From a virus: a DNA stretch of 25,327 nucleotides. This document shows, one piece after another, positions 5,468 through 21,363 of this stretch. The stretch lies in the IMG/VR virus record IMGVR_UViG_3300009420_001717, positions 1-25,327 of that record. One strand, given 5' to 3'. Within the stretch, counting starts at the first letter, position 1. Each line of letters starts with the position of its first letter. The notes under the pieces were generated by a model that had not been told where the DNA came from, did no database searches, and saw only the letters and a program-made list of their open reading frames with translations. A program made the position numbers and the translations under genes.

Positions 5468-6220
5468 ATGAATAATTATATTAAAGATACTATGAAAGAT
5501 GTTATTCGTCATACACATGACTTAGGCATTTATGAAATGGTAAAGATTAAAGGCACAGCAGAGACAACTGAGATTGAGACTGTTGATGCTGACAAAACAG
5601 TTATCCTTAAAGGTATCATGAACAATCCTGTTCCAGACTTTATTGATTCAACTGTTGGGTTATCAAGAATGGGTGTACTAAAAGGTTACTTGCAGTATCC
5701 AGACTTTGATGATGATGCGGCAACTGTTAATGTACAGACACAAGACAGGAATGGTGAAATAGTTCCTACTGAAGTAGAGTTTGTTAGTGCAACTGGTACA
5801 GATGCACATTATAGATTCATGTTAGCAGATGTTATTAACCAACAACTTAAAGATATTAAGTTTAAAGGTGCTGAGTTTGATGTAAACATTATTCCTACAC
5901 AGAAAATGATGAAGGACTTGACATACTTTAATACAGTACTTGCGGCATATGAAGCCAACTTTAGTCCTAAGACAGACAACGGTGCTTTATACTTCCATGT
6001 TGGAGATGGCGGCAGTGACAGAACAAAGATCCTAATTGACAATAATGTTGAAGGTGAGATTACTACAGATTGGAAATGGCCTTTAGATGTTGTGTTAAAG
6101 ATTCTGAGACTTGGAGACAATTCAACGTTGGTTATGAGCTTCAACAATCAAGGCTTACTACAAATTAAAGTAGATAGTGGTATGGGAATTTATACTTACT
6201 TACTTCCTGCGAGGTCCTAA
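5468..6220 (+). CDS. 45: Sliding clamp (T4 gp45-like)
   Basis: This 250-residue protein has the features of a T4-type processivity clamp. It has two similar halves rich in beta strands, an N-terminal helix (residues 1-17), a KGIMNNPVPDF loop, an interdomain stretch and a C-terminal strand LLQIKVDSGMGIYTYLLPAR resembling the end of PCNA-type domains. T4 gp45 is 228 residues. The clamp would form a trimeric ring that tethers the polymerase and, in T4, also activates late transcription with gp33 and gp55. It has its own promoter, 55 bases after the upstream gene, and its stop overlaps the transglycosylase start by one base (TAATG). That places a nucleic-acid modification enzyme in direct translational linkage with the replication clamp. 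Confidence 0.85.
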   Translation: MNNYIKDTMKDVIRHTHDLGIYEMVKIKGTAETTEIETVDADKTVILKGIMNNPVPDFIDSTVGLSRMGVLKGYLQYPDFDDDAATVNVQTQDRNGEIVPTEVEFVSATGTDAHYRFMLADVINQQLKDIKFKGAEFDVNIIPTQKMMKDLTYFNTVLAAYEANFSPKTDNGALYFHVGDGGSDRTKILIDNNVEGEITTDWKWPLDVVLKILRLGDNSTLVMSFNNQGLLQIKVDSGMGIYTYLLPARS

Positions 6221-7782
6221 TGAGAGATTTATCCTCAAAACACAGCGATTATGCTACATTCCTGCCAGCGATAAGTGGCTTCTTTACAGAGCTATTAGGT
6301 AGATGTAATAGTGTAGAAGGATATATTCCAGAAGTAGACGGAAGAAGCAGAGTTCCTAAAGGTTTTGAACATGGCATGGAAGGTATGAACTTTTTAGATA
6401 AAGAGAAAGGTTACTACTATTACAACAAAGCACTTTATAGTGCCGGTCATGCTTACTTAGACTTAGATAAGTCTGCTGTAATGGAACACATTATACAAGG
6501 TAGAGATAGAACTAATACAACTATTGTTGGAGACTCAGGTGGTTTCCAAATTGGTAAAGGTGTTATTAAGTTTGACTGGGAAAACTTCTTTGAGAAACCA
6601 GGCGATGCGAATTACAAGGGCGATGCCGATAGAGTCCGAGCAAAGATACTAGCATGGTTAGAAGGAACAGCAGATTGGAGTATGACATTTGATGTACCAA
6701 GTTGGGCATGTAAGCCTGGCTTTAGAGAAAAGACAGGACTAAACAACTTTGATGAGTGTTTAAAGTGTACTACATATAACTTAGATTGGTTTAAAGATAA
6801 TCGTATAGGCAATACAAAGTTCCTAAATGTATTACAAGGAACGTATTGGGACGATGCAGAAGAATGGTATCAAACAGTTAAGCCTTACTCCCAAGGTCCA
6901 GATGGATTAGAAGGTTGGGGCATGGGTGGTAACAACATTCGTGATATGCATATGGTACTCAAACGTATTATGATTATGCGAGACGATGGCTTACTACATG
7001 ACAAGGACTGGATTCACTTCTTGGGTACTAGTAAACTTGAATGGGGTGTAATGCTCACAAGCATACAAAGACAAATAAGAGAACACATCAATCCAAATAT
7101 CACAGTTAGTTTTGATTGTGCTAGTCCATACATTAGTAGTGCAAACGGATTAGTGTATACTAGAAACAAGATTACATCAGGACAAATGAGTTACATTATG
7201 GAGAAGTGTTTTGATAACAAAGCATTCAGTCACTTTAGTCCAGGCAACATATCTGAAAATCCTTTCCCTTGGGAGAGTGAGATTGGTAGTAGACTTACAA
7301 CTGGTGATGTTAATTGGTATGCTCCTGGTATGTTGAACAAGATACACAAGGAAGGCAAGACTTCATGGGATAGTTTCACATACGGCTTACTGATGTCTCA
7401 CAATGTATACATGCATATTAGAGCAGTACAAGAAGCAAACAGCCTAGCAACAATGGAATGTGAGAACTATCAATTAGATTGGAGAAACTGGCAGAAGAAA
7501 GGTAAGAAACTTAATCAAGAAAGTTTATACACGCCTAGGAATATGTTAATGTTTGATACATTTGTTAAAGAACTATTCACAAGTTCCGACCCTTATAAAT
7601 TATTAGAAGATGCCAGACCATTCTTAGATGATGTTAGTAATAACAAACACAAGGATCACGATAGTGCATTTAAAAATAGTACGGCTAGTATGTTCTTTGA
7701 TGAGGAAGTTGAGCAACAGGTTGAAGAGGAGTTTGGTGCAATCCAAGAGAAGGCACTTGATAATTTAATTGAGGAACTGTAA
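6220..7782 (+). CDS. dpdA: TGT/DpdA-like guanine transglycosylase
   Basis: This 520-residue protein carries the core signature of (t)RNA-guanine transglycosylases. DSGGFQ at 105-110 has the substrate-binding aspartate (D105). FDVP at 157-160 holds the second base-contacting aspartate (D158). LQG at 205-207 and GMGG at 234-237 line the base pocket. FDCASP at 298-303 has D299, the expected nucleophile. It is longer than bacterial Tgt (about 375) and lacks the CxCxxC...H zinc site that follows the nucleophile in Tgt. DpdA proteins are Tgt paralogues that exchange guanine for 7-deazaguanines in DNA and occur in phages. With folE and queE in the same window and the clamp gene coupled upstream, DNA is the more likely target, but a tRNA target is not excluded. 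Which precursor it accepts cannot be told. Confidence 0.82.
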   Translation: MRDLSSKHSDYATFLPAISGFFTELLGRCNSVEGYIPEVDGRSRVPKGFEHGMEGMNFLDKEKGYYYYNKALYSAGHAYLDLDKSAVMEHIIQGRDRTNTTIVGDSGGFQIGKGVIKFDWENFFEKPGDANYKGDADRVRAKILAWLEGTADWSMTFDVPSWACKPGFREKTGLNNFDECLKCTTYNLDWFKDNRIGNTKFLNVLQGTYWDDAEEWYQTVKPYSQGPDGLEGWGMGGNNIRDMHMVLKRIMIMRDDGLLHDKDWIHFLGTSKLEWGVMLTSIQRQIREHINPNITVSFDCASPYISSANGLVYTRNKITSGQMSYIMEKCFDNKAFSHFSPGNISENPFPWESEIGSRLTTGDVNWYAPGMLNKIHKEGKTSWDSFTYGLLMSHNVYMHIRAVQEANSLATMECENYQLDWRNWQKKGKKLNQESLYTPRNMLMFDTFVKELFTSSDPYKLLEDARPFLDDVSNNKHKDHDSAFKNSTASMFFDEEVEQQVEEEFGAIQEKALDNLIEEL

Positions 7783-7934
7783 TGAAAATGACTAGGGACG
7801 AGTTTAGAACATTCACACAAGGATTGGAACTATTAGAGCAGGAAGGTGCAGTACCTCCCTTTGTAGTAGAACATGATAGTGAGGAAGATACATTCGAAGT
7901 TAAGTTGATAAGTGATAATGAACCGAGATTTTAA
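7782..7934 (+). CDS. Small acidic hypothetical protein
   Basis: This 50-residue reading frame starts at an ATG overlapping the transglycosylase stop by one base (TAATG). It begins MKMTRDEFRTF and ends in a Glu/Asp-rich stretch with VKLISDNEPRF. One amphipathic helix and a short hairpin of strands are plausible. I do not recognise it. Tight coupling on both sides (17-base overlap with the next gene) supports it as a real gene. Confidence 0.6.
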   Translation: MKMTRDEFRTFTQGLELLEQEGAVPPFVVEHDSEEDTFEVKLISDNEPRF

Positions 7935-8088
7935 AAGAGAAGAACTAGAATATGAATTACGACACGAAGACAAGATGTGGTTCCATGTTTGCAAAGACGC
8001 TGGACCAACTCATACTGCAAAGGGTGAGCCTTGTAACTGGTGTAACTTTAAAGAACCCATACAAAGGGATTGGACAACTATAAGATGA
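7918..8088 (+). CDS. Small zinc-ribbon-like protein
   Basis: This 56-residue protein starts MNRDFKREELEYELRHEDKMWF. It has one cysteine at about residue 25 and a pair CNWC at residues 39-42 with a nearby histidine (THT), which suggests a small zinc-binding knuckle. It overlaps its upstream neighbour by 17 bases and the oxidoreductase start by four bases (ATGA). Function is unknown; similar tiny Cys-pair proteins are common in T4-like marine phages. Confidence 0.62.
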   Translation: MNRDFKREELEYELRHEDKMWFHVCKDAGPTHTAKGEPCNWCNFKEPIQRDWTTIR

Positions 8089-8969
8089 AAGCAATACTAG
8101 TAGGTACAGGAGGAATAGGTAAGAACGTTTACCTACCACAACTACAAGCCCAAGGGTTTGATGTAACTACATGCGACTTGTATGACGCTACAGCGGACTA
8201 CAATAACCCTACAGATATTAAAGGTAAGTTTGAAGTTGGAGTAATTTGTACTCCTAACTTCTCACATGAACTAATAGCAAATCAACTTGCTGATAAATGT
8301 AAAGTAGTGTTAGTAGAGAAGCCTGGATTACCTAGTGCTGATATGTGGAATGCATTATGCGATGAGAATCCAAAGACTAAGTTTGTTATGTGCAAGAACA
8401 ATATGTACAGGAATAACTTAGGAGCAATACAAAAGTGGAAAGACTCAGAAGAGAAGCCATTGCGTATTGAGATCAACTGGTTAAACAAAAACAGAGTACC
8501 CAACCCAGGTGGATGGAGTACTAATAGAAAGACTGCATGGGGAGGAGTTGCATTAGACTTATTCCCACACTTATACACACAACTAATAAACATAACTCCA
8601 TTAGATAGTTTAGAACGTAATGGTCACAGTATGGCACAACAATGGCAACTATCAGACTTAATGGATGGCGGCAGTGACTATGGTGAGATTAAGTCAGATG
8701 GTGTGTATAATGTTTGCGACTTTGCAGAAGAGAGTTGGGTAATGAATAGTGTTACTCCAATTACACTTAGAGCAAGTTGGAAAGCAGGATACGATGACCA
8801 AAGTATTAAAGTTATTACAGCAGATAGCGAATACATTTGGCACTTTGGATTATGTCCAGACTATGCTTATGGTGAGATGATTCATAAAGCAATGACAGAA
8901 GATTACAATATGCATAGATACTTTGATACATGGATTCACAAGCAGTTGGAGGCATATCATGAAGGTTAA
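8085..8969 (+). CDS. Gfo/Idh/MocA-family oxidoreductase
   Basis: This 294-residue protein begins with a Rossmann fingerprint, MKAILVGTGGIGKN, at residues 1-14 for NAD(P) binding. ICTPNFSHE is typical of the strand-loop after the nucleotide site, and VEKPG matches the conserved EKP motif containing the catalytic lysine of the family. The C-terminal part would be the beta-sheet substrate domain. Members oxidise or reduce sugars and inositols. I chose the ATG at 8085 because it gives the canonical Rossmann N-terminus and overlaps the upstream stop as ATGA; an earlier in-frame ATG at 8070 would add five residues. The next gene, a zinc-type dehydrogenase, overlaps by 11 bases, so the two probably act in one pathway. 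Substrate unknown; nucleotide-sugar or exopolysaccharide chemistry is plausible. Confidence 0.85.
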   Translation: MKAILVGTGGIGKNVYLPQLQAQGFDVTTCDLYDATADYNNPTDIKGKFEVGVICTPNFSHELIANQLADKCKVVLVEKPGLPSADMWNALCDENPKTKFVMCKNNMYRNNLGAIQKWKDSEEKPLRIEINWLNKNRVPNPGGWSTNRKTAWGGVALDLFPHLYTQLINITPLDSLERNGHSMAQQWQLSDLMDGGSDYGEIKSDGVYNVCDFAEESWVMNSVTPITLRASWKAGYDDQSIKVITADSEYIWHFGLCPDYAYGEMIHKAMTEDYNMHRYFDTWIHKQLEAYHEG

Positions 8970-9900
8970 ATTATTACATACAACAGGTAATCAAGACATA
9001 TTAGAAACTATATGGGATAAGCCTGAGCCTGCTAAAGATGAAGTAGAAGTTAAATCAGTACTGACTGGAGTATGTAGTAGTGACGTTGCTATGTACAATG
9101 GAGACTTTCCTACACTACCACAAGAGATACAAGGGCATGAAGGGTTAGGTTTAGTTACTAAGGTTGGTAGTTTGGTTAATGCAAACATGGGTATAAAAGT
9201 AGGCGACATGGTTGCTACAAGAGGCGAGCCAGGCTTTGCAGATTACTACAATGCCAAACAAGGAACATTTGTTAAAGTACCAAACAAAGCAGACCCTAAG
9301 TGGATATTAGAACCAGTTGCATGTGGCATTAATGTTGCTAATGCAGTTTACAATGCAGACAATCAAGATAAGAATCAAAGCATAGCAATTATAGGCACAG
9401 GCTTTCTTGCAAGAGTTACACACTATGCATTAAAACGTAATGGGTATACAAACTTTACAGTATATGGCAAAGCATATCCTGAGTATTGGGACAACGAAGA
9501 CGTTACTCAGATGAAGCACTCAGGCTTTCATTTAGAGATGCCAGCAGGAAAAGGTACAGAAGGCTTTGATGCATTTATAGATTATAGCAGTAAGCCACAA
9601 TACATGACAGGCAACTATGTAAATGAGAACGGCATCTATGTATGTGCGGCAGAAAAGAAAGTAGACAATATAGACTTCAGTAGGTACCTTTGGAAGAACA
9701 TTACAATTAAATTTCCTAGTCCAAGAGACAAAACATTTATAGAGTCAATGAGATATGCTAGGGAATGTATTAAGAGTGGCAGTTTAAATGTTTCTGATAT
9801 GTGGTGTAAAGCATACAATAGAGATAATGCCAAGACAGCATTTGAGAACAAACTAAACGGCACAGACAAGGGCAGGAGTTATTTAATATGGATGAGTTAA
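8959..9900 (+). CDS. Medium-chain (zinc-type alcohol) dehydrogenase-like protein
   Basis: This 313-residue protein has an MDR layout. The catalytic domain has C39 in GVCSSD and H60-E61 in GHEGLG as expected zinc ligands, and LEPVACGIN supplies the residues before the cofactor domain. The Rossmann loop is IAIIGTGFLAR at about 142-152. The structural-zinc four-cysteine lobe is absent, as in polyol and glucose-dehydrogenase-like MDR enzymes with a single zinc. The ATG at 8959 gives a normal MDR N-terminus and lies inside the end of the upstream oxidoreductase gene. An upstream extension to 8923 is possible but adds residues with no MDR similarity. It probably acts with its neighbour on a sugar or polyol; the substrate is not evident. 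Confidence 0.84.
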   Translation: MKVKLLHTTGNQDILETIWDKPEPAKDEVEVKSVLTGVCSSDVAMYNGDFPTLPQEIQGHEGLGLVTKVGSLVNANMGIKVGDMVATRGEPGFADYYNAKQGTFVKVPNKADPKWILEPVACGINVANAVYNADNQDKNQSIAIIGTGFLARVTHYALKRNGYTNFTVYGKAYPEYWDNEDVTQMKHSGFHLEMPAGKGTEGFDAFIDYSSKPQYMTGNYVNENGIYVCAAEKKVDNIDFSRYLWKNITIKFPSPRDKTFIESMRYARECIKSGSLNVSDMWCKAYNRDNAKTAFENKLNGTDKGRSYLIWMS

Positions 9901-10073
9901 TTACAATAGATTTTATTTTATTTGCAATCGGAGTATCAATTATGATATTCATGATTTTGTATGTATTAGTAAAAGAACTTCCTGCAGGAACAAAAGGTAT
10001 TACAGATGAGTATACAAGCAAGTCAGGTGTTAAACGAACAGCAAAGAAAGAACGTGAGGATCATATAGTATGA
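9888..10073 (+). CDS. Single-pass small membrane protein
   Basis: This 61-residue protein has one hydrophobic helix (about residues 8-28, FILFAIGVSIMIFMILYVLV) and a basic, Lys/Arg-rich cytoplasmic tail. It overlaps the dehydrogenase end by 13 bases and the next gene start by four (ATGA), so it is read as part of the same operon. Function unknown. Confidence 0.68.
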   Translation: MDELITIDFILFAIGVSIMIFMILYVLVKELPAGTKGITDEYTSKSGVKRTAKKEREDHIV

Positions 10074-10588
10074 AAGTAGAAAATAGAGAAAATTTTGGAG
10101 ATAATCCTAATTATTTTATAGGTGTAGAAGTAGAACGCAGTCCGCTGTTTGGTATGAATACATTGTTTGTAGTAGGAAAACAGAATCCTAAAGAGATACT
10201 ACAACGTATGTTAGACAACGGCATCGAGCATGTTTACTTAGGATGTGGTTACACATTTAATCCAGAGACTCCACAAGATTGGCAAGCCTGGGACTACATA
10301 GTACATGAACTTATTAAAGCAGATGTTTGGGTTACACTAGACTTCAATGCAAAATACTGTGAACAAGTATTAGAGTCAGGGTATGATGAGTACAACAAGT
10401 TCGTAGCAATGATAAGTGTACCTATGCCATATGTTAATCAGTTTAATTATAATGCTACATTGAAGATAGATGATAAGGCATTCAAAGGTCCCAATGGTGG
10501 AGTTTGGTGTCATAGTATACACAATTTAAGAAACAGGACCAGCTATACTGATTGGTCCGCATACGTTGGAGATAAAGTCATTGACTAA
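10070..10588 (+). CDS. Conserved-looking phage protein of unknown function
   Basis: This 172-residue soluble protein has an alternating strand-helix pattern: HVYLGCG, then a helix around WDYIVHELI, then VWVTLDFNA, then a further helix. The C-terminus holds CHSIHNL and TDWSAYVGD. The pattern recalls half of a TIM-type barrel, and two cysteines lie near predicted strand ends, but no catalytic motif is clear. It closes the operon that began at the clamp promoter: the next gene has its own promoter 17 bases downstream. I do not recognise the family. A role next to the oxidoreductases or in the 7-deazaguanine pathway would be a guess. Confidence 0.75.
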   Translation: MKVENRENFGDNPNYFIGVEVERSPLFGMNTLFVVGKQNPKEILQRMLDNGIEHVYLGCGYTFNPETPQDWQAWDYIVHELIKADVWVTLDFNAKYCEQVLESGYDEYNKFVAMISVPMPYVNQFNYNATLKIDDKAFKGPNGGVWCHSIHNLRNRTSYTDWSAYVGDKVID

Positions 10589-10604
10589 TTACCAAAAAGA
10601 ATGG

Positions 10605-10633
10605 TTGACATTGGTAACGAATTAGTGTAATAT
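10605..10633 (+). promoter_or_regulatory. Sigma70-type promoter
   Basis: A perfect TTGACA at 10605-10610 is followed after 17 bases by TAATAT at 10628-10633. It lies in the 53-base gap after the 10070-10588 gene and just before the ATG at 10642. The transcript would begin at about 10640, leaving almost no leader for the first small gene. This resembles the arrangement at 14032-14067. Confidence 0.75.
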
Positions 10634-10641
10634 ATACAAAC

Positions 10642-10764
10642 ATGAAGATAAAAATAGATATAGAGATTGATACTAAAGAAGATATGAACGAGATAGAATC
10701 AGTCATAGAAGTAATTACAGAGTTTAGAGATAAGCTCATAGAGATGCAGGAGTATGATGATTAA
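10642..10764 (+). CDS. Small acidic helical protein
   Basis: This 40-residue reading frame starts MKIKIDIEIDTKEDMNEIES and continues as a charged helix ending EYDD. It is the first gene after the promoter at 10605 and overlaps the next gene by 11 bases. There is no Shine-Dalgarno sequence in the few transcribed bases before the ATG, so it may be read from a near-leaderless mRNA. Function unknown. Confidence 0.55.
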   Translation: MKIKIDIEIDTKEDMNEIESVIEVITEFRDKLIEMQEYDD

Positions 10765-10951
10765 TACATTAATAGGAATACTACTAGTTATAGGCTCAGC
10801 CATGTTTGCATTCATGACGAATCATATCATTGCAGAGCGTAAAGCGAACAAGACATTACCTCTACCTTGGGAGAAGGGCAGAAATCCTGACCTAGGTAAA
10901 GGCAAATTCGATAAGCAAAGAGTTGTTTATCGAGACGGAGATAACACTTGA
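10754..10951 (+). CDS. Small membrane protein with basic tail
   Basis: This 65-residue protein has an N-terminal hydrophobic helix (residues 4-22, NTLIGILLVIGSAMFAFM) followed by a basic soluble tail with LPLPWEKGRNPDLGKG. It fits a signal-anchored inner-membrane protein. An alternative ATG one codon later is equally possible. An AGGAG precedes the start, inside the upstream gene. No family recognised. Confidence 0.68.
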   Translation: MMINTLIGILLVIGSAMFAFMTNHIIAERKANKTLPLPWEKGRNPDLGKGKFDKQRVVYRDGDNT

Positions 10952-10973
10952 TTATTCAAGTAACACAGATTTT

Positions 10974-11014
10974 GAAGGAATTACCCTTTGGAAGTAACGA
11001 AGGAAATACCCTTC
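10974..11014 (+). repeat. Tandem small hairpins in the cold-shock gene leader
   Basis: Two near-identical 16-base units lie 25 bases apart. The first is GAAGG, AATTAC, CCTTT (10974-10989) and the second is GAAGG, AAATAC, CCTTC (10999-11014). The second can form a perfect five-pair stem with a six-base loop and the first a four-pair stem. They end 18 bases before the cold-shock ATG. They could be an RNA element controlling translation or a protein-binding repeat; the sequence does not say which. Confidence 0.5.
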
Positions 11015-11032
11015 ATAATATAGGAAGATAGA

Positions 11033-11230
11033 ATGGCAACAGGAACAGTAAAATGGTTTAATACATCTAAAGGTTTTGGATTTATTACACCCGACGAAGG
11101 CGGAAAGGATGTGTTTGCACACTTTTCAGCAATTAAAACAGATGGATATGCATCACTTGAAGAAAATCAACAAGTGACGTTTGATATCGAAGAAGGCCCG
11201 AAAGGACCACAAGCAACTAATATTGTTTAA
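11033..11230 (+). CDS. csp: Cold-shock-domain protein (CspA family)
   Basis: This 65-residue protein is a complete single cold-shock domain. TGTVKWFN opens the first strand. RNP1 is KGFGFI (residues 13-18) and RNP2 is VFAHF (27-31). The end, [11 protein letters not shown], is the standard final strand. These proteins bind single-stranded nucleic acid and act as RNA chaperones or antiterminators. In a phage it could aid translation of phage mRNA or remodel host transcription. The upstream gap of 81 bases contains two small hairpins and a GGAAGA ribosome binding site. The next gene follows after nine bases, so they are probably cotranscribed. Confidence 0.95.
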
Positions 11231-11239
11231 GGACATAAA

Positions 11240-11671
11240 ATGAGAAGTATTTGGGTTACATTTAGTAAGGAAGGCATACATAAGTATCCAGCGGCATTGG
11301 ACGATCCAATGTTAGCAACGGGTGATGAGTATGACGTTAGTTTCTTAGGATATGCACACCGACATATATTTCATTTTAAAGTATGGATAGAAGTGTTTCA
11401 CGATGATCGTGACATTGAATTCATACAGTTTAAAAGATGGTTGGAGAAACTTTATAATGAAGCAACTCTCCAACTAAATTTTAAAAGTTGTGAAATGATT
11501 GCAGAGGATTTATATCTTGCAATCGCAAAACGATACCCTGGCAGATTTGTCAAGATATCAGTAGCCGAAGATAATGAAAACGGTTGCGAAATTGACTATC
11601 CAGTTCATAGTAGACCTATTAACAGATTCCAAGAAGGAAATGTTGATGTATCTACGAACGAAGGATGTTAA
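11240..11671 (+). CDS. Tunnelling-fold (QueD/PTPS-like) protein
   Basis: This 143-residue protein resembles the 6-pyruvoyl-tetrahydropterin synthase/QueD fold. H14, H40 and H42 or H45 in YAHRHIFHFKVWIEV occupy the places of the zinc histidines and following strand. DIEFIQFKRWL resembles the DFG-LK segment. SCEMIAEDLYLAIAKRYP resembles the PTSENLAxxL helix, and ISVAEDNENGCEI resembles the strand with the pterin-anchoring glutamate (E110). However, the catalytic Cys of QueD and the Asp-His pair are not obvious, and the loop that should hold them is short. It may be a divergent QueD converting the FolE product to carboxy-tetrahydropterin, or a non-catalytic relative. The presence of folE and queE in the window favours a pathway link. 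The family assignment is from pattern only. Confidence 0.5.
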   Translation: MRSIWVTFSKEGIHKYPAALDDPMLATGDEYDVSFLGYAHRHIFHFKVWIEVFHDDRDIEFIQFKRWLEKLYNEATLQLNFKSCEMIAEDLYLAIAKRYPGRFVKISVAEDNENGCEIDYPVHSRPINRFQEGNVDVSTNEGC

Positions 11672-11698
11672 AACAAACTTTATATAAAGGAGAAAGTT

Positions 11699-11881
11699 AT
11701 GAGTAGTGAAACACATTTACAAATAAAAGCACAGATGGAAGCCTATCTAGAAGAAAGTGCTAAGTTCGAAGACAATGGCGTGAAAGCGGCGGCGACTAGA
11801 GCAAGAAAGGCATTAGGCGAACTAGGTAAACTAGCTAAGTCTAGACGTGCAGAAATCCAAGACAAAAAGAACGCAATGTAA
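11699..11881 (+). CDS. Small basic helical protein, histone H1-like
   Basis: This 60-residue protein has two predicted helices. The second is rich in Ala, Lys and Arg (KAAATRARKALGELGKLAKSR, residues about 29-49), a pattern seen in small histone H1/Hc1-like DNA-binding proteins carried by many marine T4-like phages. It has an excellent AAGGAG ribosome binding site seven bases before the ATG, suggesting high expression. It could bind phage or host DNA. It lies two bases ahead of the glycosyltransferase gene. Confidence 0.62.
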   Translation: MSSETHLQIKAQMEAYLEESAKFEDNGVKAAATRARKALGELGKLAKSRRAEIQDKKNAM

Positions 11882-11883
11882 TT

Positions 11884-12954
11884 ATGAAAGTATTTTTAGT
11901 TGAATTAGAACCAGTAGAGACAAGATATACAGCTCAGTGGAAGAAGTATTTGCCTGAGCAAATGCAACTTGCTGGACTGGAAGTCGAAGTTATTGAAGGT
12001 CCTAGTGATGCTCCAACGGACACAACCCCCGGAGCATTCTTAAACTTTAGTGGTACAAACTACTGGAAGTCAGAGCAACTAAAAACTATCAGTATGTTGT
12101 TTGCAGAAGGTAAAGTTAGTGATGGCGATTACTTCCTTTATACAGACGCATGGAATCCTACTGTAATACAACTTAAATACATGGCAGAACTGTTAGGAGT
12201 TAAAATACAAGTTGGCGGCTTATGGCATGCCGGCTCGTATGATCCTGCAGATTTTCTTGGTCGATTGATTGGAGATGCTCCTTGGGTAAGACATGCTGAA
12301 CGCAGTATGTTTGAAGTCTTTGACAACAACTTCTTTGCTACTGACTTTCATATAGACATGTTCTGTAGAGAGTTTGGGTATGAGAAGTTTGAGTTATTGA
12401 ATTCAGGCAAAGCGGCTATAGTAGGTTGGCCCATGGAGTATCTACAACATGAATTAAAAGAATATGATAGTGCATTCAAAGAGAACATTATCTTATTCCC
12501 ACACAGATTGGCTCCTGAGAAACAATTAGATATATTCAAAGACTTGGCTGAGACAATGCCGGAGTATGAATGGATTGTATGTCAGGAACAAACACTAACA
12601 AAGGATGAATACCATTCATTGTTAGGTAGAGCAAAGATTGTCTTTAGTGCAAACACACAAGAAACACTAGGCATTAGTTGTTATGAAGGAGCATTGGTAG
12701 GTGCTAATCCAATGGTTCCAGACAGACTAAGTTATTCAGAGATGTTTACTGGAGAGTTTTTATATCCAAGTGAATGGACAGAAGACTTTGAAAGTTATAA
12801 GATGAATAAAGATTTAGTAATAGCACACATTAAAAAAGTGTTAGGAGAGAACGACAAAGGTAAGATTGACTTACAAGCGGCAAGCCTAACACACAACTTC
12901 TTTAGTGGCAAAGCACTTTATGAAGTAATCCGAGGTAAGATAGATGGACAATAA
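11884..12954 (+). CDS. GT-B fold glycosyltransferase (GT4-like)
   Basis: This 356-residue protein starts MKVFLVELEP and shows the second-domain signatures of GT4-type retaining enzymes: FPHRLAPEKQLDIF (206-218), where Arg and Lys bind the nucleotide diphosphate, and an EX7E element with E260 and E268 (ETLGISCYE). GALVGANPMVPDRLSYSEMF is the typical following loop. The donor is probably a nucleotide sugar. The acceptor could be modified phage DNA, a virion protein or a host glycan; nothing in the sequence decides. The neighbour downstream is a nucleotide-sugar epimerase-like gene overlapping by up to 11 bases, so donor supply and transfer appear linked. Confidence 0.82.
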   Translation: MKVFLVELEPVETRYTAQWKKYLPEQMQLAGLEVEVIEGPSDAPTDTTPGAFLNFSGTNYWKSEQLKTISMLFAEGKVSDGDYFLYTDAWNPTVIQLKYMAELLGVKIQVGGLWHAGSYDPADFLGRLIGDAPWVRHAERSMFEVFDNNFFATDFHIDMFCREFGYEKFELLNSGKAAIVGWPMEYLQHELKEYDSAFKENIILFPHRLAPEKQLDIFKDLAETMPEYEWIVCQEQTLTKDEYHSLLGRAKIVFSANTQETLGISCYEGALVGANPMVPDRLSYSEMFTGEFLYPSEWTEDFESYKMNKDLVIAHIKKVLGENDKGKIDLQAASLTHNFFSGKALYEVIRGKIDGQ

Positions 12955-13924
12955 TATGGAAAAAGCAGTTGTAATAACTGGAGGTAGTGGCTTTATAGGC
13001 TCTAACGTATGTAAACTATTTGTAGAGAGTGGCTTTAATGTCATTAACATTGATAGGAAGAAACGTGAGATACCAGGTGTTACACAATATCCGTTTGAGA
13101 TAGATAACAAACAAGTAAAAGGTATAATAGAACTAATTAAACCATATGCTGTTATTCATATTGCGGCAGATAATAGTGTACCTAAGAGTGTACTTGATCC
13201 TATGCCTACTTACACAGACAATGTATACCAAACTATTAGTTTGCTGAATACTTGCGTTGGTGCTAAGGTACCTAACTTTATATATGCTAGTAGTTCTAGT
13301 GTGTATGGTACAAGTATAAATGAAGATGGTTCTTTCAAAGAAACAGATCCTTGTGGACCTGTTAATCCTTACGGTAGAACAAAACAAATGGCAGAGAATA
13401 TTATTAAAGACTATGCTGAAGTGTATGGCTTTAACTATGCTAACCTTAGACTATTTAATGTAGCAGGTAGTAACAATGGCAAGTATGGATATCAGAAAGA
13501 TCCGTTAGTCCATGTACTGCCAATTCTTACCCAAGCAGGTTTAAATGGAGACGAGTTTGTAATCAATGGCGATGATTATAACACACCAGACGGAACTTGC
13601 GTTAGAGATTATACTCATGTTAACGATGTAGCAAGAGCATTTCTAAGCACGGCTTACTATATGTTTGACCAACATGAAAACATTACAGTAAACATTGGTA
13701 ATAGTAATCCAATTAGTATGAAAGAACTAATAGGTGCAGTAGGCGATGAAATAGGCACTCCAATTGAAACCTCAATGGGTACTAGTAGAGCCGGAGACAT
13801 GATACAGACTCATGCAGATATAACACTAGCACAAGATTTATTAGGGTGGGAGCCAACCAACTCTATACATCAAATTATACTTGATGAAATTAAATGGCAA
13901 AAGACTAAAATCAAGAAGAGGTAG
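12944..13924 (+). CDS. NAD-dependent epimerase/dehydratase (GalE-like)
   Basis: This extended short-chain dehydrogenase has up to 326 residues. The Rossmann glycine motif is TGGSGFIGS (12-20). YASSSSVYG (114-122) holds the catalytic Ser/Thr region, and Y143 with K147 in YGRTK is the catalytic pair. LRLFNVAG and an RDYTHVNDVARAF segment match UDP-glucose 4-epimerase. It would interconvert nucleotide sugars in the cytoplasm. Two starts are possible: the ATG at 12944, which overlaps the glycosyltransferase end and has GAGG upstream, and the ATG at 12956, which gives the more usual MEKAVVITGG N-terminus. The exact sugar substrate is unknown. Confidence 0.88.
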   Translation: MDNNMEKAVVITGGSGFIGSNVCKLFVESGFNVINIDRKKREIPGVTQYPFEIDNKQVKGIIELIKPYAVIHIAADNSVPKSVLDPMPTYTDNVYQTISLLNTCVGAKVPNFIYASSSSVYGTSINEDGSFKETDPCGPVNPYGRTKQMAENIIKDYAEVYGFNYANLRLFNVAGSNNGKYGYQKDPLVHVLPILTQAGLNGDEFVINGDDYNTPDGTCVRDYTHVNDVARAFLSTAYYMFDQHENITVNIGNSNPISMKELIGAVGDEIGTPIETSMGTSRAGDMIQTHADITLAQDLLGWEPTNSIHQIILDEIKWQKTKIKKR

Positions 13925-13926
13925 TT

Positions 13927-14007
13927 ATGAACGATAGATGGGGAAGAGCCTTTATATGGATAGGCTTAATCTTATTTGCTGTTTTGATTGTAATTCCAGT
14001 TAATTAG
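13927..14007 (+). CDS. Transmembrane microprotein (26 residues)
   Basis: A short frame beginning two bases after the epimerase stop encodes MNDRWGRAFIWIGLILFAVL followed by IVIPVN. It is one hydrophobic helix with a basic N-terminus, and a GAGG precedes the start. It is small enough to be chance, but the clean helix and tight spacing argue for a real microprotein. Confidence 0.45.
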   Translation: MNDRWGRAFIWIGLILFAVLIVIPVN

Positions 14008-14019
14008 TAGGAGAAATAA

Positions 14020-14070
14020 ATGAGATATTACTTGACATTTGCCACAAAATCCGGTATAATAAACCTATGA
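14020..14070 (+). CDS. Leader microORF (16 codons) coupled to the phosphoribosyltransferase gene
   Basis: An ATG with a strong TAGGAG ribosome binding site six bases upstream opens a 16-codon frame, MRYYLTFATKSGIINL. Its TGA overlaps the ATG of the phosphoribosyltransferase gene as ATGA. The codons also encode the TTGACA and TATAAT promoter elements. On readthrough transcripts it would deliver ribosomes to the downstream start, which has no ribosome binding site of its own. Confidence 0.45.
   Translation: MRYYLTFATKSGIINL
14032..14060 (+). promoter_or_regulatory. Consensus sigma70 promoter, near-leaderless
   Basis: A perfect TTGACA (14032-14037) and a perfect TATAAT (14055-14060) are separated by 17 bases, the best match in the window. 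The -10 box ends six bases before the ATG at 14067, so the predicted transcript starts on or next to the start codon. It would drive the phosphoribosyltransferase, folE and queE block. Confidence 0.85.
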
Positions 14071-14558
14071 GCAAAGTATATTACACATGGTCAGATGTTG
14101 ATAAGATGATGTCTAACATCACACAACAAATGGCAGTTCAAAAATATAGCCCAGATGTTATATTAGGACCTGGTAGAGGTGGATATGCAATAGGTGTTAT
14201 GCTCAGTCATTACTATGATGTTCCATTCCATGGATTTGAATGGCAAACAAGAGATGGCGAAGTCGAAGATTCTAGAACATTAGAACAACTTTTGTCTAAA
14301 TACATAGGTAAGAATATTGTTATTATAGATGACATTAATGACACAGGTAAAACACTTACAGGTATTCATAGTGTTGCTTTAGGCATAGAACAAGATTCAA
14401 ATGAGTCAATGTTTTTCTTGCAAGAAGGCTTAAAATATGTTACATTATTTGATAAGTTATCAAGTAGTTTTGGTGAAGTATCTATTACTGCCAAAGAACT
14501 TGATGAAGTAGAAGGACAACAATGGATAGTATTTCCTTATGAGGAGTGGTGGAAGTGA
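14067..14558 (+). CDS. Phosphoribosyltransferase-like protein
   Basis: This 163-residue type I phosphoribosyltransferase-like protein has the PRPP-binding signature IVIIDDINDTGKT at residues 84-96 (two acidic residues followed by DTGKT). The upstream loop LGPGRGGYAIGVML (33-46) fits the pyrophosphate loop. These enzymes couple a base to PRPP or hydrolyse the reverse. The closest layout is the xanthine/hypoxanthine-guanine type, so it could act in purine salvage for phage DNA synthesis. Heading an operon with folE and queE, it might also handle a deazaguanine base, which is speculation. The start overlaps a leader microORF (ATGA) and lies at the predicted transcription start. Confidence 0.82.
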   Translation: MSKVYYTWSDVDKMMSNITQQMAVQKYSPDVILGPGRGGYAIGVMLSHYYDVPFHGFEWQTRDGEVEDSRTLEQLLSKYIGKNIVIIDDINDTGKTLTGIHSVALGIEQDSNESMFFLQEGLKYVTLFDKLSSSFGEVSITAKELDEVEGQQWIVFPYEEWWK

Positions 14559-14824
14559 TTCAATTAGAATTATTTGAGGATATAGATAGAGATTTTAACA
14601 CAATGAAGAACAAAATTAAAGGTACAACTGAACGTAGCTCAAGAGTATTAGAAACTACTTGCTGGCAAGTTGAGATGTATGAGGATAATGTTCTCATTGA
14701 AACAAGAGAGTTACCAGGTAAAAGTATACATTATGCAAATGATTGTGCTGAAAATTGGAACAACGGAATTATAGAAAAAACAACCAAACATTACTTAGAT
14801 GATTGGCCTGGAGGGATAGGATGA
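14555..14824 (+). CDS. Small hypothetical protein between phosphoribosyltransferase and folE
   Basis: I chose the GTG at 14555, which overlaps the upstream stop (GTGA) and has AGGAG eight bases before it; GTG codons at 14546 and 14549 are less well placed. The 89-residue product begins with a short hydrophobic/acidic stretch (IQLELFEDI) that could serve as a peptide docking motif. It then carries a strand-rich segment (CWQVEMYEDNVLIETRELPG) and a helix with CAENW. The ATGA overlap with folE ties it to that operon. Function unknown. Confidence 0.68.
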   Translation: MIQLELFEDIDRDFNTMKNKIKGTTERSSRVLETTCWQVEMYEDNVLIETRELPGKSIHYANDCAENWNNGIIEKTTKHYLDDWPGGIG

Positions 14825-15513
14825 GTACAAGCGATATAATAAAAGCAAGAATTAAAAAAGCAGGAGCAAAGTTTTGGGCTGGTGATAACATCAGTGAGTT
14901 CCTACATGAAGGTGATAAGCAATTACTAGTAGATGAGTTGACTCCTAAGTTTGAAGCAGTACTAGATGGACTAGTAATTGACATTGAGAACGATCCTAAC
15001 AGTAACCAGACTGGTAAACGTCTAGCAAAGATGTATATCAATGAACTAATGACTGGTAGGTATGATCCTATCCCTAATGCTACGGCATTCCCTAACCATG
15101 TAGAAGATGGTTACAAAGGTATGATTGTAATTAGAAGTGAGATTACAAGTATGTGTTCTCATCATCACCAAACAGTTAAAGGTGTAGCATACATAGGTGT
15201 TATTGCAAGTGATAAACTAATAGGTTTGTCTAAATATACTAGAATAGCACAATGGTGTGCAAGTAGAGGAACACTACAAGAAGAACTATGCAATGATATT
15301 GCTAGAGAGATTAAGAAAGCATGTGTAACTGACCATGTAGGAGTTTACATACAAGCCACACACGGTTGCGTAGAGAATAGAGGTGTACAAGCACACAGCA
15401 GTCTTACACAAACGACTGTATTAGAAGGCGCATTTAAAGAAGAGGCTAAAGTACAACAGGAGTTTATGGATAATATTAAACTTCAACAGCAATTTGCAAA
15501 CGGTAAAGGTTAA
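14821..15513 (+). CDS. folE: GTP cyclohydrolase I
   Basis: This 230-residue enzyme converts GTP to 7,8-dihydroneopterin triphosphate, the first step of both folate and 7-deazaguanine (queuosine/preQ0) synthesis. Zinc ligands are visible: C112 with H114/H115 in MCSHHHQT and C183 in THGCVENRGV, followed by AHSSLTQT. The GLSKYTRI segment after the first zinc motif is family-typical. Length matches E. coli FolE (222). The ATG at 14821 has GGAGGGATAGG upstream and overlaps the previous stop (ATGA). A folate role for nucleotide synthesis is possible, but queE three genes away and the transglycosylase in the same window point to deazaguanine synthesis. Confidence 0.95.
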   Translation: MSTSDIIKARIKKAGAKFWAGDNISEFLHEGDKQLLVDELTPKFEAVLDGLVIDIENDPNSNQTGKRLAKMYINELMTGRYDPIPNATAFPNHVEDGYKGMIVIRSEITSMCSHHHQTVKGVAYIGVIASDKLIGLSKYTRIAQWCASRGTLQEELCNDIAREIKKACVTDHVGVYIQATHGCVENRGVQAHSSLTQTTVLEGAFKEEAKVQQEFMDNIKLQQQFANGKG

Positions 15514-15515
15514 AT

Positions 15516-16046
15516 ATGATAGAACGTAGACAATCAGGATTCGTAACAACAAATGGATTAGTTCCAGTAGATACTATATGTGCAAACATAGGTAAAGGTA
15601 AAACACTTGATGCCTTAACTAGAATATATCCTAAACTTACACACGAAGATGTCTATGAGGCTATTCACTTTTACTCGGACAATACTAATATCCCAATGGC
15701 GGATACAGATAAGATATTACAATTAGTAAACGTGGGCAAAGGTGCAGAAGATACTGTTATCGAAGTAACCAACCTACACCAAGTGGTATACATTAAACTA
15801 GTAGCAAAAGGACATTACTTTTATCCACAGGAAGGTAACTTTGCTAAACTAATGAATCAAGGATTAAGAATCTGTTGTTTAGATAATGTTATAACAGTAG
15901 AAGAAGAAAGAGAGTTTGATTCAGAATTACATGTATTAGTTAATGAGGCATTGCATAGAGCAGTACCAGATATACTTACAGACATTGATAGAACTAAGAA
16001 AGACTTAGACTATGATGAATACATACAAAGAAGAAATAATGATTGA
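15516..16046 (+). CDS. DUF433-like N-terminal domain protein
   Basis: This 176-residue protein lies two bases after folE and overlaps queE by eight. Residues 14-52 (ending TLDALTRIYPKLTHEDVYEA) resemble DUF433, a helix-turn-helix-like domain known from VapB45-type antitoxins, where the phrase hPxLTxEDVxxAL is diagnostic. The second half has strands and a basic/hydrophobic segment (VVYIKLVAKGHYFYPQ) that I do not recognise. The C-terminus is highly charged. It could be an operon regulator, an antitoxin-like protein or a pathway accessory. No PIN-domain toxin partner is adjacent. Confidence 0.65.
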   Translation: MIERRQSGFVTTNGLVPVDTICANIGKGKTLDALTRIYPKLTHEDVYEAIHFYSDNTNIPMADTDKILQLVNVGKGAEDTVIEVTNLHQVVYIKLVAKGHYFYPQEGNFAKLMNQGLRICCLDNVITVEEEREFDSELHVLVNEALHRAVPDILTDIDRTKKDLDYDEYIQRRNND

Positions 16047-16968
16047 AGTAAAGAAATTTGACAGTAAAGTTAAGAAGGAACCTAAGTTAAGGTACTCCGA
16101 AGCATTCTACTCCGTACAAGGAGAAGGACGTTGGGTAGGTGTGCCAAGTATATTCTTAAGGACTTTTGGTTGTAACTTTGAATGTGCAGGATTTGGACAG
16201 CCACGTGGAGACATCATAGCGAAGGAAAGTATGCCTTACCTAACTGATGAACGTGCAGACAAGAACCATCCCAATGCTTATAAAAGCATTGAAGATTTAC
16301 CTGTTACCCCTATAGGGTGTGACAGTAGTGCCAGTTGGGCGGCGAAGTATAAACACTTACAGATGACAAAGTCAGTAAGTGAAGTGGTTAATCACATCAC
16401 ATCGCTTTTACCCAATGGCACATTCCAGGGCCGGCACGGCGAAGACATTCACTTGGTGATTACAGGTGGTGAACCGCTACTAGGGTGGCAACGTGTCTGG
16501 CCCGACCTTATTGATATATTACATTCTGACTATGGATTAGTTAATGTAACATTTGAAACTAATGGCAGTAAGCATTGTGAAGATAATATGACTGAATACT
16601 TTAACAATGAAGGCAGAGATGTACATGTTACTTGGAGTACATCACCTAAACTAACTATTAGTGCAGAGAAGTTAGAAGATACACTTATACCAGATGCATT
16701 AGTTAGTATGAACAAAGTAGAGAACAGTTTTTTATATAATAAATTTGTTGTTAGAGACAAGACTGACTTTGATGAAGTTGATATGTTTGTAGATGCATAC
16801 AAGAAAGCAGGAGTTAAGATAGATTCTATTTACTGTATGCCAGAAGGTGCAACGTTTGAACAACAAGAGCTCACAGAGAAAGATGTTGCAGAAGCATGTA
16901 TGCAGACAGGATACAAGTTTAGTCCTAGATTGCATATTAGTTTGTTTGGTAATGCGTGGGGTACTTAA
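16039..16968 (+). CDS. queE: 7-carboxy-7-deazaguanine synthase (radical SAM)
   Basis: This 309-residue enzyme would turn carboxy-tetrahydropterin into 7-carboxy-7-deazaguanine (CDG). YSEAFYSVQGEG at 19-30 is the QueE substrate loop. C45 and C49 (CNFEC) are two of the [4Fe-4S] ligands. The third is probably C94 in IGCDSS, equivalent to the CD[ST] end of the usual cluster motif, so about 44 residues separate the second and third cysteines. GGEP at 143-146 binds SAM, and FETNGS and CMPEG follow. It is longer than E. coli QueE (223). I prefer the ATG at 16039; an in-frame ATG at 16012 is possible. The first half of the gene is about 46% G+C by hand count and the second about 32%. E. coli QueE also inhibits cell division, an alternative role to bear in mind. 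Confidence 0.88.
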   Translation: MIEVKKFDSKVKKEPKLRYSEAFYSVQGEGRWVGVPSIFLRTFGCNFECAGFGQPRGDIIAKESMPYLTDERADKNHPNAYKSIEDLPVTPIGCDSSASWAAKYKHLQMTKSVSEVVNHITSLLPNGTFQGRHGEDIHLVITGGEPLLGWQRVWPDLIDILHSDYGLVNVTFETNGSKHCEDNMTEYFNNEGRDVHVTWSTSPKLTISAEKLEDTLIPDALVSMNKVENSFLYNKFVVRDKTDFDEVDMFVDAYKKAGVKIDSIYCMPEGATFEQQELTEKDVAEACMQTGYKFSPRLHISLFGNAWGT

Positions 16969-20342: not shown

Positions 20343-20652
20343 CAAGGCATTGGGTGGTACTCCTCAGACCAATGGTATGAAACAATCTGCCGATGTAGAG
20401 TGGAGAGAAGACTGTGGCTACAATAAGTTCTTTGAACACGAACTAGTTTGGCAACAAGGATACTACGATGGCAAAGACGAAGACTGGAGCCAGATTGGCA
20501 TACCCCATACCCTACTATCCGATATAAATACTAATGCAAAAGGAAAGTATGGATGGCATTTCAATGTTGTTCGTGATACTAAATATGCGATAATAACATT
20601 TGAAGATGAGGATGATGCATTATGGTTCCGTCTTACAAAAAATAAGGAATAA
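20335..20652 (+). CDS. Conserved phage protein of unknown function
   Basis: This 105-residue protein runs from the ATG at 20335 (TAAGGAA upstream). The C-terminal half, KYGWHFNVVRDTKYAIITFEDEDDALWFRLTKN, is a strand-helix pattern I recall from many T4-like marine phage proteins. The same EDDAxWF ending recurs in the 22031-22396 product, so the two may be distantly related. Function unknown. Confidence 0.72.
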   Translation: MIDKALGGTPQTNGMKQSADVEWREDCGYNKFFEHELVWQQGYYDGKDEDWSQIGIPHTLLSDINTNAKGKYGWHFNVVRDTKYAIITFEDEDDALWFRLTKNKE

Positions 20653-20653
20653 T

Positions 20654-20893
20654 ATGATAGTAGAAATTTACAGTAAACCACAATGCCCATACTGTGATAT
20701 GGCAAAGAACTTAGCAACACAAAAAGAATACGATTTAACAGTTAAAATGTTGGACGAAGACTTTGACAGAGAAGCACTAATGGAAACATTTCCAGGTGCA
20801 AGAACTTTCCCACAGATTATAGTTGATGGCGAAAAGATTGGCGGCTACCAAGAGTTTAAAACATTAGTAATGCGTGAAGGCTTAGGTAAGTAA
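20654..20893 (+). CDS. grx: Glutaredoxin (dithiol, CPYC)
   Basis: This 79-residue classic glutaredoxin has active site C11-P-Y-C14, the cis-proline motif TFP (ARTFPQIIV) and GGYQEF for glutathione binding. It would reduce disulfides with glutathione, for instance in ribonucleotide reductase, in the cytoplasm. The ATG at 20654 gives the normal N-terminus MIVEIYSKPQ, one base after the upstream stop region; a longer frame from 20600 is not needed. Its stop overlaps the cytochrome gene start by one base (TAATG), so the two are tightly coupled. Confidence 0.95.
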   Translation: MIVEIYSKPQCPYCDMAKNLATQKEYDLTVKMLDEDFDREALMETFPGARTFPQIIVDGEKIGGYQEFKTLVMREGLGK

Positions 20894-21363
20894 TGAGAGA
20901 ATTAGGTTTAGTATTAGGTGGCATTGCTGTATTCACAGTCTTTTTTGTAGGGGTTATATATCCAAACGTAGAGTACAAAGGCTATGCAAGTAATCATAGT
21001 TGCACAGGCGAATGCTACGAGCAGTATGTTGCAGACAATGGTACAGTTGGAGAACAAATACAAGAACAAAAGGCTATAGCAATAGCCAAAGAAGAAGCAG
21101 GCATAGTTGATGTGTTTGAAAACATCAGAGGACTATGGGCAGGTTGTGCCGCATGTCATGGTGCACAAGGACAGGGACAAGGTATGTTTCCTAAGTTAGC
21201 AGGACAAAGTTCAGACTATATAGCAGGCAGGCTAAATGCTTACAAAAATAGAGAAAAAATAGGAATGAACAGTACGATGATGTGGGGTCAAGCCGCAGGA
21301 CTATCGGACAAACAAATAGAACAGTTAAGTCTGTTCGTAGAAGAGGGATTTCCAGATGAGTAA
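20893..21363 (+). CDS. Membrane-anchored c-type cytochrome
   Basis: This 156-residue protein has an N-terminal hydrophobic helix (residues 5-23, a signal anchor), a linker of about 60 residues containing C37 and C41 (CTGEC), and a class I cytochrome c domain. The haem motif is C85-A-A-C88-H89, followed by GAQGQGQGMFPKLAGQSSDYI as in c4/c553-type cytochromes. A likely axial methionine is M129 or M130 ahead of AAGLSDKQIEQLSLFV. Haem would be attached in the periplasm by the host maturation system. A phage cytochrome c is unusual. It might carry electrons in the host respiratory chain during infection. Coupled by short overlaps to a glutaredoxin on each side, which supports a redox cassette and argues against contamination. 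Confidence 0.9.
   Translation: MRELGLVLGGIAVFTVFFVGVIYPNVEYKGYASNHSCTGECYEQYVADNGTVGEQIQEQKAIAIAKEEAGIVDVFENIRGLWAGCAACHGAQGQGQGMFPKLAGQSSDYIAGRLNAYKNREKIGMNSTMMWGQAAGLSDKQIEQLSLFVEEGFPDE

Follow-up and report, generated by a model that had tools for sequence, protein, structure and literature searches.

What does a large phage do with a guanine transglycosylase (TGT) encoded directly behind its probable sliding clamp, among genes for 7-deazaguanine synthesis and close to a glycosyltransferase (GT)? The question is raised by an IMG/VR viral fragment of 25,327 bases (IMGVR_UViG_3300009420_001717), whose full length is referred to here as the window. A first-pass annotation of the sequence had proposed a system that modifies DNA with a 7-deazaguanine, built on a DpdA-like transglycosylase beside replication genes, and the analysis supports this. 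The GT at 11884-12954 was missing from that annotation. We judge the chances about even that the whole represents a 7-deazaguanine DNA-modification cassette that dispenses with QueC, includes a GT and lies in the replication module of jumbo phages. The parts differ in strength: insertion of a 7-deazaguanine into DNA is likely, replacement of QueC by a QueD-like protein is probable to a lesser degree, and glycosylation of the modified base by the GT could as readily be true as false.

The genes that carry the argument are given below. Counts refer to 104 TGT loci (the window, three isolates and 100 viral contigs, many of them cut short); denominators of 63 and 51 are the loci with at least 8 kb and at least 9.9 kb downstream of the TGT gene.

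2478..5174 (+): DNA polymerase, 898 amino acids (aa); homologues so annotated in PA5oct and Phosso; 96 of 104 loci
5468..6220 (+): probable sliding clamp, 250 aa; Phosso homologue annotated as sliding clamp, hmmsearch 1.2e-75
6220..7782 (+): DpdA-like guanine transglycosylase, 520 aa; AlphaFold2 fold, catalytic Asp pair, hhalign
11240..11671 (+): QueD-like zinc protein, 143 aa; hhalign to QueD 9.3e-6; 61 of 63 loci
11884..12954 (+): GT4-type glycosyltransferase, 356 aa; AlphaFold2 fold, catalytic residues; 61 of 63 loci
14803..15513 (+): FolE, GTP cyclohydrolase I (true start may lie further in); Pfam 2.7e-38, over cut-off; 44 of 51 loci
16012..16968 (+): QueE, 7-carboxy-7-deazaguanine (CDG) synthase, radical SAM; PHROG 'QueE-like' 2.2e-50; 39 of 51 loci

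The transglycosylase

The 520-residue protein carries DSGGFQ (residue 105), FDVP (157), LQG (205), GMGG (234) and FDCASP (298), all as first listed. It had also been noted that the zinc motif is missing, and this holds throughout the family: CxCxxC...H occurs in 0/40 phage and 0/18 further members, and E. coli Tgt has CxCxxC at 302. The further rows, here and below, come from cellular-genome loci L159-L179, of which one, L178, is phage-like. The protein gets no name from Pfam, PHROGs, NCBIfam or PADLOC.

What kind of enzyme is it? An AlphaFold2 model built on an alignment with 37 relatives has the TGT fold; its mean pLDDT is 88.4, with low confidence at the C-terminus (residues 476-513). Its three best Foldseek matches in the PDB are all TGTs (best E 2.7e-7), and in VIA the best Z is 19.3, with an rmsd of 4.6 over 302 residues; the 50 rows listed are TGTs, with Z from 18.0 to 19.3. 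Matching viral models in BFVD are a Motura TGT, the nt-1 protein R9TGF0 (3.4e-8) and a mycobacteriophage TGT. The nt-1 DpdA2 gene is YP_008125322 in the part of Hutinet et al. (PMC6884629) that deals with it, and R9TGF0 is taken as its product, as both are 464 aa long. Structure prediction had been suggested as a way to place D105 and D299, and the two aspartates prove invariant wherever they are aligned: D105 is kept in 40/40 phage rows and 16/18 further rows (two gaps), D299 in 40/40 and 18/18.

Is it closer to DpdA or to tRNA Tgt? The profile comparison envisaged in the first-pass annotation does not separate the two: with a 58-member TGT profile, hhalign gives 5e-6 to both E. coli Tgt and nt-1 DpdA2. 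The nt-1 match (4.9e-6) spans residues 102-303, and eight other comparisons score 0.09 or worse, including 9g DpdA1 at 0.092. A genome search at E 10 with the phage-contig profile picked up no DpdA in 9g, nt-1, Motura, CP220 or phiST. The DpdA2 homologue of ACP17 is an intermediate that bridges the window family and nt-1 DpdA2. Fold and profile matches together place the enzyme in the TGT superfamily, plausibly as a distant relation of DpdA2; by its sequence it is one of a large phage family that is remote from DpdA2 but linked to it.

A TGT identical to that of the window (100%) is found on a 119-kb contig (L085, G002), and one of 84% identity on a 340-kb contig (L093, G001). The nearest isolates by TGT are 11 PA5oct-like Pseudomonas records (39.7% identity; PA5oct-like jumbo phages, Arenbergviridae), followed by Phosso (28%) and Vibrio phage 2.275.O (26%).

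Gene order and the clamp

The usual order over the 104 loci is polymerase, clamp, TGT, a conserved protein called orf172, QueD-like protein, GT, FolE and a phosphoribosyltransferase (PRT), then QueE. These loci are not independent, as clustering at 75% identity reduces 98 full-length TGT open reading frames (ORFs) to 40 groups. The clamp ORF is present at 103 of the loci, orf172 at 76, the QueD-like gene at 82, GT at 80, FolE at 63, PRT at 54 and QueE at 48.

The first-pass annotation pointed to a one-base overlap between the TGT gene and a gp45-like clamp gene as a sign of coupling to replication. The overlap of 5468-6220 with 6220-7782 is confirmed in the window, and a clamp ORF lies upstream of TGT in 103/104 loci, Phosso being the exception. 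The exact overlap is not conserved: with gaps and overlaps measured from the starts of longest ORFs, it is one base in 15/103 loci and of any length in 20/103; the gap is within 50 bp in 65 loci and reaches 1,379 bp at most. As to the gp45 likeness, the Phosso annotation agrees with a clamp, but no profile match to gp45 was obtained: hhalign to gp45 and to the 9g beta-clamp is at noise, and the protein has no Pfam or PDB-profile match. Its probable identity as a clamp thus comes from its position and its Phosso homologue.

Could modification be coupled to replication? The clamp-TGT neighbourhood resembles the clamp-DpdA1 neighbourhood of phage 9g without detectable homology, which makes coupling a reasonable idea by analogy. 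Common expression would explain the arrangement too.

The QueD-like protein and the usual absence of QueC

The proposal of a QueD-like protein at 11240 stands at profile level: the match to QueD is at 9.3e-6, with eight controls at 0.19 or worse and 9g QueD at 0.084. H14, H40, H42, C84 and E110 are kept in 21/21 phage and 13/13 further rows. By alignment with QueD the three histidines are its zinc positions, and the C-terminal Glu is retained too. The catalytic residues are missing, however. At the place of QueD's catalytic Cys, four residues ahead of the first His of HxH, 34/34 rows have Leu (L36), and the aligned stretch of the family has no Asp-His pair. Sequence-profile searches of the PDB with the TGT, GT, QueD-like and clamp alignments returned nothing useful; bacterioferritin for the QueD-like protein and ribosomal L24 for the clamp were taken as chance matches.

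What, then, does this protein do? The first-pass annotation had suggested looking for queC and queD in the rest of the genome. A PF01242 protein distinct from the QueD-like one was found in 11/13 records searched, so 6-carboxytetrahydropterin (CPH4) can come from that protein. With its catalytic residues lost and a separate PF01242 protein at hand, the QueD-like protein is proposed to act after QueE. By eye, the PF01242 proteins L115 (G002:110416-110811), L114, L116 and L117 keep the catalytic Cys and the Asp-His pair and have altered zinc histidines. Their pattern is the reverse of that in the QueD-like protein; a complex that mixes both is conceivable.

Scans of window proteins (ten each against Pfam and PHROG) named no QueC, in agreement with the first-pass annotation, and on the 119-kb contig with the identical TGT the QueC match is weak and below the cut-off. 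Eighteen records with the QueD-like protein were tested at a cut-off of 22 bits: G001-G006, G008-G010 (records that may be incomplete), PA5oct, Phosso, ACP17, RHph_I1_18, X1, BUCT-ZZ01, Ahp1, Bakedbeans and phiST. QueC over the cut-off is absent in 16 of them; X1 has one match, below it. Matches in G001, G002, G007 and G010 are partial (model positions 2-61) and were not accepted as QueC; this was judged from the full sequence of the G010 ORF and, for the other three, from equal ORF size and equal model positions. Conversely, the phages tested that have a full QueC (9g, nt-1 and 2.275.O) have neither the QueD-like protein nor the GT (3/3). Motura and CP220 have neither as well. Among 8 records, QueF and Vut_1 exceed the cut-off in 2.275.O only.

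The pattern looks like replacement rather than loss, and suggests that the QueD-like protein, usually with the GT, stands in for QueC in a separate branch. The GT is present in 14/18 QueD-like records, and the four phages without it make it inessential to the QueC-less branch. In seven isolate regions viewed around the QueD-like gene, FolE is near in 7, QueE in 6 and GT in 3.

That folE and queE share the strand of the TGT gene had been seen before and is borne out. The window QueE scores 1.2e-10 against NCBIfam QueE, below the equivalog cut-off. By eye, an insertion of about 50 residues seems to shift its third cluster Cys (GCNFEC... then GCDSSASW).

The glycosyltransferase

The AlphaFold2 model of the GT (pLDDT 93.9) has a GT-B fold and matches GT4-type enzymes (Foldseek 5e-11, VIA Z 26.6). 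R208, K213 and E268, the Glu of EX7E, are found in 40/40 phage and 19/19 L159-L179 rows, and position 260 is E or D in all 59. Ten of the 40 representatives are just 19-28% identical to the window GT, and the slot may therefore hold GTs of differing specificity. A candidate suggested by eye, QTMAN/GTDC1, was rejected: the Pfam model DUF3524, which we take to be the N-terminal domain of that enzyme, matches 0/40 members at E 1.

Is the GT part of the cassette or a casual neighbour? Among the 63 longer TGT loci, 2.275.O has neither GT nor QueD-like protein, and in Phosso a polymerase-clamp-QueD-like-GT-FolE-QueE cluster lies about 167 kb from TGT. When viral contigs were scanned with the Phosso GT, 72 loci were obtained, at least 9 of them on contigs already in the TGT set. 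Every one (72/72) holds at least one of TGT (60), FolE (62), QueD-like (58) and QueE (57). In ACP17, X1 and BUCT-ZZ01, GT and QueD-like genes adjoin clear DpdA2 homologues (hhalign to nt-1 of 9e-33 to 2e-28). The 20 isolate records that match the GT comprise 11 PA5oct-like phages (PA5oct was viewed), Phosso, ACP17 (2), X1, BUCT-ZZ01 and 4 of PhiXhv/Ep032; the last group (27% identity, 4/20 records, one of the four viewed) was set aside as a different family. The linkage of the GT to deazaguanine genes is strong; its chemistry is a proposal.

In cellular genomes, the GT alignment picked out 27 loci. Six of these include polymerase and clamp and are apparently phage contigs that were binned in metagenome-assembled genomes (MAGs). 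The other 21 hold TGT in 18, QueD-like in 12 and a Vut_1-like protein in 9, with one or the other of the latter two in 19; FolE and QueE are each found in 2. The Vut_1 family includes the queuosine-precursor transporter YhhQ, and two scanned members of the Vut_1-like cluster give sub-threshold matches (3.4e-5 and 0.01). TGT and GT share a strand in 16 of the non-phage-like loci. Nine are isolates by title, from Methylobacterium, Devosia, Magnetospirillum (2), Azospirillum, Aurantimonas, Shimia, Sulfitobacter and Pelagibacterium; among the rest are several short contigs from MAGs whose cellular origin is uncertain. A tyrosine-integrase-type ORF is present in 11/19 clustered loci (one was scanned in Pfam), and the modules may thus be mobile elements or prophages. 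A plasmid search with one bacterial GT found none, and with one bacterial TGT gave a single 25% match, in Azospirillum sp. B510.

Near the bacterial modules, CoiA-like nuclease proteins (L160:3477-4697 and L165:6321-7880; CoiA_nuc 5.4e-6 in one, CoiA_N 0.015 in the other) might be restriction partners, and proteins of the MASE1 sensor histidine kinase type lie upstream in L162-L166, L170, L171 and L173 (8 loci, one cluster, one member scanned). Two clusters of large proteins, c12 and c60, were considered as clamp-like and rejected (hhalign to the clamp family of the window 0.062 and 0.019, far from significant; controls cysH and queA at 0.31 to 0.54).

A possible pathway

How might the pieces fit together? 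FolE, a QueD encoded elsewhere in the genome and QueE would make CDG. The QueD-like protein would process CDG in place of QueC, decarboxylation being the likeliest reaction. TGT, perhaps recruited by the clamp, would exchange guanine in freshly copied DNA for the CDG-derived base, and the GT4 enzyme would glycosylate that base, either ahead of insertion or once it is in the DNA. The sugar donor may come from the adjacent epimerase, and the PRT may recycle the released guanine. The sugar could be O-linked through a derivative of the base, or even C-linked at position 7.

The wider picture joins a QueC-free route, a repurposed QueD fold, a clamp-linked DpdA and a glycosylated 7-deazaguanine in phage DNA to a TGT-GT pair that, with a QueD-like protein or a Vut_1-like transporter, would also form a compact mobile module in alphaproteobacterial genomes. 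It is tentative, and we hold its chances to be a little under even.

A cultured phage offers a hint. PA5oct (NC_071039) DNA was sized at ~375 kbp by pulsed-field gel electrophoresis (PMC3936114) and its sequence is 286,783 bp (PMC6950013), as given in the sizing statements of those papers; the passage in the MIJ3 paper that remarks on the gap (PMC6892783) gives no explanation for it. Phage PAU was likewise mis-sized by electrophoresis, and in the passage on that phage DNA modification is given as the cause (Iyer et al., PMC7824862). The PA5oct gap could fit bulky hypermodified bases.

Several points weigh against such a pathway. Terminal redundancy or an error in the size markers could also produce the size gap. 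The modified base in these phages is predicted from genes, and a 7-deazaguanine without a substituent has no evident O-acceptor. Neither acceptor nor donor can be read from the GT fold, whose structural neighbours are many GT4-type enzymes with similar scores; the linkage counts carry no background rate for chance GT neighbours; and a distant GT relative in PhiXhv-12 adjoins genes annotated in N-acetylglucosamine-malate metabolism, not deazaguanine genes. Four phages (RHph_I1_18, Ahp1, Bakedbeans and phiST) have the QueD-like protein without a GT. Then there are the two QueC exceptions: G006 has the QueD-like protein together with a QueC match over the cut-off (25.5 bits, in a 221-aa QueC-like ORF), and G010 reaches 22.5 bits with neighbours in frame, in an ORF that is NAD-synthase-like by eye and was counted as an exception.

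Alternative explanations

Is the base glycosylated at all? It might be CDG, or 7-deazaguanine formed by the QueD-like protein, with the GT acting elsewhere, on the host surface, the virion or a small molecule. CDG and 7-deazaguanine have reportedly been found in phage DNA, GT4 enzymes commonly act on such other targets, and the four phages that lack a GT fit well. A GT with an unrelated task would not be expected to keep the company described above, in 72/72 viral loci, in the separate cluster of Phosso and with TGT in 18/21 non-phage-like cellular loci. This explanation is unlikely, although it retains an appreciable share of the probability.

The first-pass annotation suggested that the base may be CDG or a host-supplied preQ0. 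The gene distribution does not bear this out in that form and suggests the branch with the QueD-like protein and, usually, the GT. In a related alternative, host QueC would convert phage CDG, and the base would be preQ0 or a derivative. Hosts such as P. aeruginosa possess the queuosine pathway, and the QueC-like ORF of G006 could be cited in favour. The near-absence of QueC over the cut-off from QueD-like records (16/18), and of the QueD-like protein and GT from full-QueC phages (3/3), makes this improbable.

Might tRNA, not DNA, be the substrate? The protein has the fold and motifs of a tRNA Tgt, and hhalign puts its profile as far from E. coli Tgt as from DpdA2 (5e-6 each). TGT adjoins polymerase and clamp, though, and the zinc motif is absent, as in the DpdA of 9g and nt-1 and unlike E. 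coli Tgt. The 9g-type DpdA, reported to insert preQ0 into DNA in the passages of PMC6884629 that treat it, also adjoins a clamp gene in 9g. A role on tRNA is very unlikely on these grounds.

Least probable is a pterin glycoside, as in cyanobacteria, made by FolE, QueD-like and GT with QueE and TGT in a separate pathway. Two tetrahydrobiopterin glucosyltransferases among the GT structural matches (Z 22.2 and 21.5) speak for it, but they do not rise above sucrose-phosphate synthase, MshA and BshA (23.9 to 26.6), and 17/18 non-phage-like cellular TGT-GT loci have no FolE in the fetched stretch.

Other genes of the window

The remaining genes of the cassette region are:

8070..8969 (+): oxidoreductase, Gfo/Idh-like by eye, accessory; library matches weak; 25 of 63 loci
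8923..9900 (+): zinc alcohol-dehydrogenase-like protein, accessory; PHROG 7.2e-16; 25 of 63 loci
10070..10588 (+): orf172, conserved protein; no informative Pfam or PHROG match; 49 of 63 loci
12944..13924 (+): NAD-dependent sugar epimerase; Pfam Epimerase 3.9e-46; 33 of 62 loci
14067..14558 (+): purine-type PRT; Pfam Pribosyltran 1.6e-12; 38 of 51 loci
15516..16046 (+): DUF433 protein, accessory; Pfam 3.9e-7

The epimerase and GT genes share 11 bases. The PRT homologue in BUCT-ZZ01 is annotated as xanthine-guanine phosphoribosyltransferase (5.4e-41). The oxidoreductase and alcohol-dehydrogenase pair (8070-9900) sits between TGT and orf172 and might alter the sugar or the base. A PADLOC scan of ten proteins gave nothing informative. 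Outside the cassette, by eye, a cytochrome-c-like ORF (CAACHG) is flanked by two glutaredoxin-like ORFs at 20600-21664, and two minus-strand ORFs at 8-1445 resemble 2-oxoglutarate-dependent hydroxylases.

Relation to known systems and significance

How does the cassette compare with known systems? The DpdA2 of nt-1 shares the guanine-transglycosylase barrel, has no CxCxxC and works with FolE/QueD; nt-1 differs in having QueC and no QueD-like protein or GT, and the window TGT, at 520 aa, has a C-terminal extension. Phage 9g is alike in having its DpdA1 gene 8 bp from the clamp gene with the polymerase beyond, and folE, queD, queC and a QueE-like radical-activating gene nearby. The transcription order is the reverse, DpdA being upstream of the clamp; neither DpdA nor clamp gives a profile match, and GT and QueD-like genes are absent. 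Phage 9g makes G+ through Gat-QueC, according to the section concerned in PMC6884629.

The nearest cultured TGT relatives are the PA5oct-like phages, which carry the same cassette. A system for deazaguanine synthesis and incorporation was already predicted in PA5oct (Iyer et al. 2021, PMC7824862), and the general deazaguanine idea is thus not new; the section on PA5oct in that article makes no mention of a GT, a QueD-like partner, a missing QueC or cellular modules. The published descriptions of PA5oct-like phages that were searched do not contain 'queuosine', nor 'deazaguanine' in those searched for that word. By titles in the open-licence literature, no report was found of a GT with DpdA or of a glycosylated 7-deazaguanine. 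For the module of GT and QueD-like protein, no earlier report was found in the literature examined.

For the individual steps there are parallels. Glycosylated hydroxymethylcytosine of T4 and its relatives would be a functional analogue, a base that is modified and then glycosylated by a phage GT; T4 differs in base, pathway and GT, and the GT family against T4 alpha-GT is at noise (hhalign 0.17). QTMAN/GTDC1, the mannosyltransferase of tRNA queuosine, is a GT that acts on a 7-deazaguanine nucleoside. Its likeness to the window GT is a C-terminal motif resemblance noted by eye only, and the acceptor of the window GT would differ in lacking the cyclopentenediol. Cui et al. in 2023 are said to have described a CDG decarboxylase, DpdL, and phages that contain deoxy-7-deazaguanine (dDG) or its 7-carboxy form (dCDG). 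DpdL would carry out the same logical step as the one suggested here for the QueD-like protein, and the two may be one protein or different ones. Cellulophaga phage phiST has a QueD-like homologue.

To our knowledge, glycosylation of phage DNA has been documented on pyrimidines. If the proposal is true, a sugar on 7-deazaguanine would join two known strategies in a new bulky base of the major groove, with a presumably protective role: a new kind of DNA armour, and one that could be tested in cultured phages. Homologues of TGT, QueD-like protein and GT are present in the cultured Pseudomonas aeruginosa phages PA5oct, MIJ3, Callisto and Paride, and Paride is described as killing dormant cells in the relevant part of PMC10761892. 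DNA modification in such phages would bear on restriction, CRISPR targeting, sequencing and phage engineering. It would also be a simple explanation for the gap between gel and sequence in PA5oct, and the finding also points to uncharacterised modules in bacteria.

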